Assembly (NCBI GenBank): GCA_902575095.1
Contig: CACGPY010000001.1
Location: 1-64,000, forward strand
Origin: an uncultured Pelagibacteraceae bacterium
GTDB taxonomy: Bacteria; Pseudomonadota; Alphaproteobacteria; Pelagibacterales; Pelagibacteraceae
Reading direction: 5' to 3'
Length of the DNA: 64,000 bases
How positions within the stretch are numbered: the stretch's first letter is position 1; each line of letters opens with the position of its first letter. This document shows positions 23,831 to 28,871 of the stretch, in pieces. The notes under the pieces are model-generated. The model was not told the origin of the DNA. It worked only from the letters and a program-made list of their open reading frames with translations, and made no database searches. Both the position numbers and the translations under genes were made by a program.

Positions 23831-25042
23831 TCAAACCTTTTCAAAAATCAAAGCAGCATTAGTTCCACCAAAACCAAAACTATTAGACATAACAGTATTT
23901 AGAGAGGCTCCTATTTCAGTTTTAGTTATTATAGGAAATTTTTTGGCTTCATCATCAATCTCATTAATATTAGCTGAGCCAGCAATGAAATTATTTTTCA
24001 TCATAATCAAGCAGTATATAGCTTCATGTACAGATGCCGCACCTAATGGATGCCCAGATAAAGATTTTGTTGAACTGATTTTTGGAATATTTTCACCAAA
24101 AGTATTTTTAACTGCATTTAATTCTGTAATATCACCTACTGGAGTTGATGTACCGTGAGTATTAATATAATCAATTTTATTTTTAGAAGTAGCCATAGCC
24201 ATTTGCATGCATCTTACTGCCCCTTCACCTGATGGCGCGACCATATCATAACCATCAGATGTTGCCCCGTAGCCAGTTAGTTCAGCATAAATTTTTGCTC
24301 CTCTTGCTTTTGCATGTTCATATTCCTCAAGAACTAAAACTCCTGCGCCACCAGCAATAACAAAACCATCTCTTGTTTTATCATATGCTCGTGATGCAGT
24401 TTCAGGCTTATCATTGTATTTTGATGATAATGCTGTCATCGCGTCAAACATCGCAGTCATAGCCCAATGAACTTCTTCGCTGCCCCCTGCAAATACAATA
24501 TCTTGTTTACCAATTTGTATTAGTTCCATTGAGTTTCCTATACAGTGGCCGCTTGTTGCACAAGCAGAACTCATTGTATAGTTAGTGCCCTTTATTTTAA
24601 ATGGTACGGCTAGTGTGGCTGAAGCGGTACTTCCCATTGTTCGTGGAACAATAAATGGTCCCATTAATTTTGGAGTTTTTGCCCTTGTTTTATCAGCTGC
24701 AAGAATAACATTTTCGATTGATGGTCCACCGGAACCCATTATAATTCCAGTCTTAAAGTTACTCACTTCTTTATCTTCTAAACCAGAGTCTTTAATAGCT
24801 TCTTTCATAGCGATATAATTATAAGCAGACCCAGATCCCATAAATCTAATGGTCTTTCTATCTACAAAATCTGAAAGTTTAATATTAGGTTTACCATGTA
24901 CATGACTTTTGAGATTGTGTTCTTTATATTCTTCTGCATACGAAATTCCAGATTTTGAATTTAGTAACGATTGGTGTACCTCTTCTTGATTATTTCCAAG
25001 ACACGAAATTATACCCAGACCTGTGACTACTACTCTTCTCAT
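23831..25042 (-). CDS. fabB: 3-oxoacyl-ACP synthase I
   Basis: A 403-residue condensing enzyme needed to elongate the cis-3 intermediate made by FabA. The catalytic Cys lies in [12 protein letters not shown] and the two His in [11 protein letters not shown] and [14 protein letters not shown]; the end has [10 protein letters not shown]. Pairing with fabA, plus this motif set, favours FabB over FabF. It overlaps fabA by 4 bases (ATGA). Confidence 0.94.
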
Positions 25043-25542
25043 GATTTAAATAATCCAACTTTTAAATTTTCAGCTCGGTATATTACTTCACCATCAGCAC
25101 TAAGAATCCCATTTGCTAAACCAACCGCAGTCCCCTCTTTTTTAAGAATTCTTTTCATATTTATCTCGTATGTTGCCATTTTAACTTTTTTAAGTACTTC
25201 ACCTGTAAATTTCACGGAGTTTACACCTAATGCTCTTCCTTTTCCAGGTTCACCCGTCCATCCAAGAAAAAAACCAACAAGTTGCCACATCGCATCTAGT
25301 CCTAGACAGCCCGGCATAACAGGATCACTCTTAAAATGACAGCTAAAAAACCATAAATTATCTTTGATATCAAGTTCGGCTTTAATAAATCCTTTTTTAA
25401 ATTCTCCAGCATCCTTTTTAATTTCTGTAATTCTGTCAAACATTAACATTGGAGGTAATGGAAGTTTAGCATTTCCTTCACCGAATAATTTTCCCTCTCC
25501 ACACGAAATTAATTCATCATAGCTGTAGCTGTTTTTTTGCAT
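25039..25542 (-). CDS. fabA: 3-hydroxydecanoyl-ACP dehydratase/isomerase
   Basis: A 167-residue hot-dog-fold enzyme that dehydrates and isomerises the C10 intermediate, the entry to anaerobic-type unsaturated fatty acids. [19 protein letters not shown] holds the catalytic His, and the Asp follows in the same stretch; [18 protein letters not shown] is diagnostic of FabA. First gene of fabA-fabB-fabI. It is divergent from irr across 92 bases that include an Irr-box-like dyad, an arrangement known in several alphaproteobacteria. Confidence 0.96.
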
Positions 25543-25593: not shown

Positions 25594-25610
25594 TTTAGAA
25601 TCATTATAAA
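25594..25610 (+). promoter_or_regulatory. Irr-box (ICE)-like operator before irr
   Basis: TTTAGAATCATTATAAA is an imperfect inverted repeat with 7-bp arms. It matches the rhizobial iron-control-element consensus TTTAGAA-NN-RTTCTAAA at all but one defined position. It lies 24 bases before the irr ATG and 51 bases from the fabA start. The same 17-mer, with one change, precedes katG. Autoregulation by Irr is inferred. Confidence 0.65.
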
Positions 25611-25634
25611 GTAGTTAAAATATTAAAAAAAAAC

Positions 25635-26042
25635 ATGAAAAAAGAAGATATTTTAAAGAAATTAAGATCATCAGGCTTAAGACCAACTAAACAAAGAGTT
25701 GAAATCGCTAAATTCTTGTTCGAAAGAGATAAAACGTTTCATTTTACAGTTGAGAGCCTGGAAAATCATTTAGCTAAAAAAACAACTTGTAAATTTGCAT
25801 TAGCAACAATTTATAATACAGTTCATGCTTTCAAGAAAGCAGGGCATTTAAGTGAAGTAGATGTTAGAGGAAAAAAAACTTATTTTGATACTAATATCAC
25901 CGATCACCACCATTTTTATGATAACGAAACTTCCGAGTTAATTGACATTGATGCAAGCGAGGTAGTTATCCAAAAAATTCCAAAAGCGCCAAATGGAAAG
26001 AAAATCAAAAACGTAGAGGTATTTATAAATTTAAAAAATTGA
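25635..26042 (+). CDS. irr: iron response regulator Irr (Fur superfamily)
   Basis: A 135-residue Fur-superfamily protein with the Irr pattern: LRSSGLRPTKQRVEIAKFLF, FALATIYNTVHAFKKAGHL, GKKTYFDTNITDHHHFYDN and SELIDI. The HHH motif is the haem-responsive feature conserved in Irr and absent from Fur. In related bacteria Irr represses or activates haem and iron genes under iron limitation. The N-terminal GCPWHD haem motif of Bradyrhizobium Irr is missing. It is divergent from fabA and followed by katG, each junction carrying an ICE-like box. Confidence 0.9.
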   Translation: MKKEDILKKLRSSGLRPTKQRVEIAKFLFERDKTFHFTVESLENHLAKKTTCKFALATIYNTVHAFKKAGHLSEVDVRGKKTYFDTNITDHHHFYDNETSELIDIDASEVVIQKIPKAPNGKKIKNVEVFINLKN

Positions 26043-26053
26043 CAGTTTGTCGC

Positions 26054-26081
26054 TTGATTTTTACTTTAGAATTATTATAAA
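26054..26081 (+). promoter_or_regulatory. predicted katG promoter with Irr-box overlapping the -10
   Basis: TTGATT (26054-26059) and TATAAA (26076-26081) form a 16-bp-spaced -35/-10 pair. The dyad TTTAGAATTATTATAAA (26065-26081) covers the spacer and the -10, differing by one base from the box before irr. The katG ATG is 13 bases downstream. A protein bound here would block RNA polymerase, so repression by Irr is the natural reading. Confidence 0.62.
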
Positions 26082-26085
26082 CTAG

Positions 26086-28268
<2,183 letters not shown>

Positions 28269-28269
<1 letters not shown>

Positions 28270-28871
28270 TGAATGAGCAAATTGGTTCAGACTTTTATAA
28301 AGTTCCAAACATTACTTTTGATATCAAAAAATTAAGAGCAGACCTTGATATAGTTCTTAAAAATAAAAAATTTAATACATTAGGAATTACAAATTTTGCT
28401 GCCATCCCAATCAATAGAGTCCCAGGAGATGCAGACTCTATCAAAGGGCACAATGTGAGAGGTGAGTATTGGACATTTCCTGATGAGTCTGGAAAAGAGG
28501 TCAAAAGAGATAAGTCAATAGATGAGTCAAAATATACAGAGATTGTACCTGAATTTAAAAACACATATTTTGAGGAAGTCTATAATTTATTAAGAAAAAA
28601 ATTTAAACTTGGTAGAGTAAGAATTTTATTAAAAGAGCCTAGATCGACACTAAGTTGGCATAGAGACCCAGAACCAAGACTTCATATTCCAATAATAACA
28701 AATCCTGGATGCAAAATGGTCATAGAAGATGTTGCAAAACATATGCCGGCAGATGGATCTGTAACTATTACAAACAACACAAAATATCATAATTTTTTTA
28801 ATGGTGGTGAGCAAGATAGAATTCATTTAGTGGCTTGTGTTTTAGAAAATCCCTTTAATAAAACTAATTAG
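28269..28871 (+). CDS. 2OG-Fe(II) oxygenase, aspartyl/asparaginyl beta-hydroxylase-like
   Basis: A 200-residue cupin-fold protein. The iron-binding facial triad is visible as His131-x-Asp133 (SWHRDPEPRLHIPI) and His174 (NTKYHNFFNGG); Arg184 in DRIHL would bind 2-oxoglutarate. There is no signal peptide. The start overlaps the katG stop in TAATG, indicating translational coupling to katG and thus likely control by Irr. The substrate is unknown. An Fe(II) enzyme sensitive to peroxide beside a haem peroxidase suggests a shared oxidative or iron context; that is inference. Confidence 0.78.

Follow-up and report, generated by a model that had tools for sequence, protein, structure and literature searches.

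The closest described counterparts of the locus analyzed here are the Irr/ICE systems of Rhizobiales and Rhodobacter. As our standard of comparison for the ICE, or Irr box, we used the 17-bp consensus dyad TTTAGAA-N3-TTCTAAA (TTTAGAANNNTTCTAAA). The regulator family, the 17-bp layout and the left half TTTAGAA appear to be common to these systems and to the SAR11 boxes described below, whereas the right half reads TTATAAA in SAR11 and TTCTAAA in the ICE. For R. sphaeroides, the available text of two reports (PMC3413700, PMC7762939) places the mbfA box over the transcription start, as is predicted for SAR11. Rubrerythrin-type targets are known. In the available part of PMC3413700, Irr of R. sphaeroides showed no binding to katE, a result that we count against the interpretation offered here; in the source SAR11 genome, in contrast, exact boxes occur at the irr locus only, and the adjacent target, katG, is a true catalase gene. 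The IrrB protein of Magnetospirillum gryphiswaldense ties Irr to iron/oxygen balance (available portions of PMC5459824 and PMC12912731), and reduced IrrB is stated in a passage of PMC5459824 to lead to the synthesis of catalases and peroxidases; the link between Irr and catalase is thus not new as such. Unlike the arrangement at the SAR11 locus, Magnetospirillum katG is reported in these portions to be directly under Fur, and OxyR is also present. The PerR regulators of Bacillus and Leptospira (5nl9; PMC8638967, in excerpt) share with SAR11 Irr a site of five His/Asp ligands that includes the PerR-type Asp, as well as peroxide-scavenger targets, and the autoregulatory sequences of Leptospira PerRA are said in the same excerpt to resemble Irr boxes. 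A passage of PMC3033426 describes P. ubique as lacking catalase, yet 134 of the 197 family genomes gave a katG match, in some cases a fragmentary one. No report of a connection between Irr and katG in SAR11 came to light in a partial search of the literature, and priority is uncertain.

The window, that is, the whole stretch of 64,000 nucleotides that was analyzed, derives from a SAR11 genome; the 80 loci listed as matches to its Irr all belong to records of Pelagibacteraceae or Pelagibacterales. The genes fabI, fabB and fabA lie in this order on the minus strand and are followed by irr and katG on the plus strand. The divergent neighbour of irr, fabA (25039..25542, minus strand; NCBIfam FabA), is not counted in the regulon. 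The irr gene (25635..26042, plus strand) encodes a Fur-family regulator of 135 aa, IrrA (NCBIfam NF045678, Pfam FUR), and katG (26095..28269, plus strand) encodes a catalase-peroxidase of 724 aa that scores 1015 and 1019 bits with the NCBIfam catalase/peroxidase models, exceeding both cut-offs. Box 1 (TTTAGAATCATTATAAA; 25594..25610, plus strand) is located 24 bp upstream of the irr ATG at 25635, and box 2 (TTTAGAATTATTATAAA; 26065..26081, plus strand) 13 bp upstream of the katG ATG at 26095; both are exact matches. The first-pass annotation had described two near-identical 17-mers, differing at one base and each one position away from the ICE consensus. This description was accurate: the two boxes lie where it had placed them, their single difference is at position 9, and a comparison with the consensus dyad gives one mismatch for each of them. 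What the sequences show is the identity of the boxes, their position and conservation, their dependence on the presence of irr, and the exchange of the gene behind them; binding by Irr, repression and the signal are inferred. We regard it as probable that the two 17-mers are Irr operators in a feedback circuit for peroxide defence that occupies a single locus.

The window has no third site closer than two mismatches, and across all contigs of the source genome (942,715 bases in 34 contigs, 86% complete) boxes 1 and 2 are the only exact matches. The earlier statement that there is no third complete copy therefore holds for the window and, as to exact copies, for the remainder of this 86%-complete genome. 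Relaxed scans gave no excess over controls: with up to two mismatches the genome contains 22 forward and 16 reverse sites, compared to 19 and 21 for the reversed pattern, and with up to three mismatches the window contains 18 sites, compared to a shuffle mean of 15.9. It is thus the exact matches, along with where they lie and how well they are conserved, that carry the signal. A wider regulon in the source genome was considered and set aside, since the relaxed scans stay at the control level and weak sites are indistinguishable from noise. The single one-mismatch site in the genome, at C7:28910, is a box on the opposite strand (TTTAGAATTATTTTAAA; G000:C7:28910-28926, L128:2511-2527), located 66 bp upstream of a gene for a DctP-type TRAP solute-binding protein (PF03480). 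This box is kept upstream of the same gene in five relatives (L248, L249 and L251-L253), once with A at position 9; the flanking sequence is largely conserved as well.

Conservation of the box was surveyed in 197 genomes of the family, in which a match with E below 1e-30 was scored as irr-positive. The exact box, TTTAGAAYNRTTATAAA, was found in 118 of the 131 irr-positive genomes, being absent from 13, and in 6 of the 66 irr-negative genomes (124 of 197 overall; these are genome-wide counts, with places given for the matches listed). Fisher's test for box against irr presence gave 1.8e-30, a p-value that is too small because the genomes are related. The reversed pattern occurred in 29 of the 197 genomes, with 36 matches by hand tally. 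From the irr loci collected (178, of which 161 are distinct), the gene downstream of irr was identified as katG in 134 distinct loci and as rubrerythrin in 25; a split katG and a contig end account for the remaining two. The katG-side box has no mismatch in 121 of the 134 loci, one in 8 (129 within one mismatch) and more in 5, and a box with two mismatches or fewer precedes rubrerythrin in 25 of 25 loci. When the katG and rubrerythrin gaps were shuffled, a site within one mismatch appeared in 3 of 7950 cases. On the irr side, the box is exact in 74 of 161 loci, has one mismatch in 37 and two in 14 (125 within two), and is more divergent in 36. Columns of the box have an identity of 0.92-0.95, and those of the 20-base flanks on each side 0.50-0.71; as these loci were picked because they contain the box, the comparison is biased towards its columns. 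Conservation across genomes and the shuffle controls together rule out a chance origin of the boxes. The scan of related SAR11 genomes that had been proposed as a check thus finds the box kept, in most loci, upstream of both irr and katG.

The small Irr regulon of irr and katG that had been proposed at first pass stands in its core, in that these genes have the sole exact copies in the source genome and the boxes track irr; its extension to the fab genes is not supported. The suggestion had been that fabA-fabB-fabI might share box 1 and be co-regulated through it, and box 1 does sit in the 92-bp gap between the divergent genes. However, the fabA-irr gap has no box within two mismatches in 36 of the 161 loci, while fabA stays in place, divergent from irr, in 160 of 161. 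Sharing by the fab genes is therefore not supported, and we consider it unlikely. The 36 loci also suggest that autoregulation of irr through box 1 would not be universal; they count against the operator interpretation, as do the 13 irr-positive genomes without an exact box and the 5 irr-katG loci with none within one mismatch.

Of the 123 katG-side boxes compared across the clade, 119 are preceded by a TTG that begins 10-12 bp upstream; TATAAA occupies box positions 12-17, with a spacer of 15-17 bp, and the box fills this spacer and the putative -10. The earlier claim that box 2 overlaps a -10 is borne out by this arrangement in part, but a generic promoter scan of the window did not list the katG-box promoter (4 matches in total, compared to a shuffled mean of 4.3). 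The same scan gave a 9-of-12 match beginning in box 1 (TTTAGA, 16, TAAAAT). On the irr side, an alignment of 29 close relatives puts the box at the expected start, right after a conserved TATATA-like element that reads TATAGA in the window. Either location would suit a repressor. The boxes thus appear to overlap the promoters of their targets, as predicted from sequence, and since box 2 covers the putative katG -10, it most likely serves in repression of katG. A second dyad is found 31-32 bp upstream in 17 loci (10 katG, 7 rubrerythrin), a distance equal to three helical turns, as if two dimers bind.

Could the conserved 17-mer instead be a core promoter only, consisting of a -10 and spacer, and not an operator? 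The position of TATAAA within the katG-side box and of TTG before it would be expected of a promoter. The half that contributes no promoter element, TTTAGAA, is nevertheless near-invariant (among sites already within two mismatches), the irr-side box follows the TATATA element rather than lying on it, and ten katG genes that are located elsewhere, in genomes without irr, have no box. We regard the core promoter as a very improbable explanation. At position 13, where the search pattern itself expects A, this base is found in 129 of 131 katG-side sites; on the irr side 105 of 125 sites have A and 20 have T. That the half-sites differ merely so that a -10 is supplied was not retained as a complete explanation, since the irr-side sites, which follow the TATATA element in the 29 aligned loci, mostly have this A.

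In the operator interpretation, an Irr dimer on box 1, at the expected irr start, would repress its own gene, and Irr on box 2, over the putative katG -10, would keep RNA polymerase off katG. Inactivation of Irr, either by haem binding or by peroxide chemistry at an iron site formed by H36/D85/H91/H93/D104, would then allow catalase and Irr to be made. In related genomes the same box would act before a rubrerythrin-RFO-DUF3501 operon in katG's place.

Loci from which irr is missing were examined for the fate of the box. In nine genomes katG lies directly beside fabA with no irr between them; the box is exact in one of these (L118) and within one mismatch in two (L263 being the second), and the other seven have 2, 2, 3, 3, 5, 5 and 5 mismatches. 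L271 has a short irr remnant that is broken by a stop. The nine loci are not independent, as L265-L267 are mutually very similar, and likewise L268 and L270; L262 and L264, in which katG is cut at the 5' end, were left out of the count of irr-less katG genes. For the ten usable katG genes located elsewhere in irr-less genomes, the best site in the 200 bp upstream has 4-6 mismatches. The decay of the box at irr-less katG loci, together with its absence at these ten genes, indicates that the box follows irr, not katG, and is mostly lost with irr; the exact box retained in the irr-less slot of L118 is counted against our interpretation. A second, weak Fur-type match is present in 38 of the 66 irr-negative genomes, and thus Fur alone does not explain the distribution of the box.

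Stray exact boxes outside the irr locus, picked by eye among the matches listed, lie inside open reading frames in G062, G005, G028, G102 and G003, touch the end of the same gene in G052 and G120, and lie at a contig end beside fabA in G170. In G006 the stray box is upstream of katG, irr being gone. An exact box in G014 (L126:3007-3023, G014:C42) is located 26 bp upstream of a divergent gene for a 1-Cys peroxiredoxin (AhpC-TSA, 1-cysPrx_C). The irr and katG genes of G014 have boxes as well, and the peroxiredoxin is a possible third peroxide-defence target.

In loci without katG, the slot downstream of irr contains a rubrerythrin of 137-138 aa, a CCG-domain Fe-S oxidoreductase (RFO) and DUF3501. 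RFO is present in 25 of 25 rubrerythrin loci and DUF3501 in 23, the other two being cut short. An aerobic-type rubrerythrin cluster, RBR-RFO-DUF3501, is described in the available text of PMC5114695, and the same genes fill katG's place in SAR11, behind the same box. The word Irr is absent from that paper; the association of the cluster with irr and an ICE-like site, like its exchange with katG, was found in the present analysis. Trees were built with FastTree from 156 of the 161 loci (five were left out). The katG/rubrerythrin label changes 13 times on the tree of the neighbouring fab DNA (at least 9 times for the rubrerythrin group when only well-supported branches are used) and 7 times on the Irr tree. 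In their history, Irr and its target thus seem more tightly linked to each other than either is to fab. In a separate comparison of L058-L074 with L028-L056 (L057 aside) over the same region, irr is of two types, 79-100% versus 53-60% identical to that of the window, while fabA stays at 79-100%; this pattern suggests exchange of irr by recombination.

A match was obtained in 195 of 241 genomes of the class, and the 28 best-scoring irr loci outside the family were analyzed. Rubrerythrin is downstream of irr in 25 of these best 28. The gap between the two genes contains a site within two mismatches of TTTAGAANNNTTCTAAA in 20 of the 25 (4 of them exact), compared to 0.0008 of shuffles, and the remaining five gaps have 3 to 6 mismatches at best. 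Position 13 is C in 18 of the 20 sites, as the search pattern itself expects. These data are most simply read as irr-ICE-rubrerythrin being the older arrangement; katG would then have been set behind the operator in SAR11, with the right half-site becoming TTATAAA.

By NCBIfam family model the regulator is narrowly assigned to Irr: it scores 150.8 bits with the IrrA model NF045678, for which the cut-off is 150, and 136.7 bits with the other Irr model, NF045677, thereby failing the cut-off of 170. The PerRA and PerRB models gave 61-66 bits, far under their cut-offs and compared to 151 for IrrA, so the protein is not filed as a PerR. It is unlike PerR in scoring far higher with the Irr models, in its HHH motif, and in lacking the structural-zinc CxxC, which is absent from the set of 161 SAR11 Irr proteins. 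An AlphaFold2 model has the Fur-family fold (pLDDT 91.3), and the best PDB match, both by sequence and by fold, is the Leptospira peroxide regulator 5nl9, with Fur and Mur structures close behind. The residues H36, D85, H91, H93 and D104 are invariant in all 161 proteins and the HHH motif is found in 160 (H91 and H93 in 161, H92 in 160). No CP dipeptide, and hence no Cys-Pro haem regulatory motif of the B. japonicum type, occurs among the 161. According to the available text of PMC7762939, the second haem site varies between Irrs, and the missing Cys-Pro motif therefore does not exclude membership of this family.

What signal the switch would respond to can be read in two ways. In the classical haem/iron read-out, the input suggested at first pass, Irr represses the haem enzyme KatG and releases it when haem is plentiful, peroxide not being the direct signal. 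The protein belongs to the Irr family and KatG is a haem protein, and the HHH of 160 of the 161 sequences is the conserved haem site of reviewed Irrs in the available part of PMC7762939. However, 25 of 161 loci have a rubrerythrin, a non-haem protein, as the controlled gene, one genome has a box at a 1-Cys peroxiredoxin, and the Cys-Pro motif is uniformly missing. In addition, the available text of PMC2864753 reports that in HTCC1062 the irr transcript tracked stationary phase, not iron, and that Irr protein was not significantly altered by iron limitation, which we count against the proposed switch as well as this read-out. We give the haem/iron read-out slightly less than an even chance.

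In the alternative, PerR-like reading, the locus is a peroxide regulon and Fe-loaded SAR11 Irr senses H2O2 through oxidation of ligand histidines. The targets, peroxide scavengers with differing cofactors, would be expected for such a regulator, as would the peroxide regulator 5nl9 as the nearest structure. An OxyR-type gene with E <= 1e-30 was found in 1 of 197 family genomes (G167; 222.5 bits, below the model cut-off), whose katG is one of the ten located elsewhere, and another in G436, from the other draw of 54. In both genomes, which are of the same genus, this LysR gene is divergent from katG (L257, C42 in G167; C13:25488-28599 in G436), and irr was found in neither (G436 is 57% complete). 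No Irr box with fewer than five mismatches is present upstream of katG in L257. The SAR11 box is one change away from the Bacillus PerR box. The five invariant residues are the counterparts of the PerR iron ligands H37/D85/H91/H93/D104 (PMC4700492, in excerpt), but the same excerpt gives these residues for the haem-controlled B. japonicum Irr, so they cannot decide between haem and peroxide; moreover, the structural-zinc CxxC of many PerRs is missing, as it is in Irrs. The chances of the PerR-like reading, too, fall a little short of even.

For haem KatG, di-iron rubrerythrin and, in one genome, 1-Cys peroxiredoxin, we favour peroxide as the common theme. The targets and the invariant PerR-type ligand set make peroxide a plausible signal, and SAR11 Irr may work like a PerR. 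In its fullest form, which we put forward tentatively and think has about one chance in three of being right, SAR11 Irr would have become a PerR-like switch reduced to a single locus, where the operator stays fixed while the peroxide-defence module after it (haem catalase-peroxidase, or di-iron rubrerythrin-RFO-DUF3501) has been exchanged repeatedly, and would stand in for OxyR in a group of marine bacteria that ranks among the most abundant. The locus offers a small, testable circuit of one regulator, two operators and one target gene, and the exchange of katG and rubrerythrin helps to tell haem, iron and peroxide apart as possible signals.

Two further features of the region were noted. The sequence TTGACAGTTTGTC at 26039-26051 contains the dyad GACA-gtt-TGTC and overlaps the irr stop; in 29 close relatives it is almost invariant at this place upstream of the katG box. 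Downstream, positions 28269-28871 encode an aspartyl/asparaginyl hydroxylase-like protein of 200 aa (PF05118) whose gene shares its first base with the end of katG; in 14 other loci that were compared, a relative is found downstream of katG, even where katG is just 52-54% identical.
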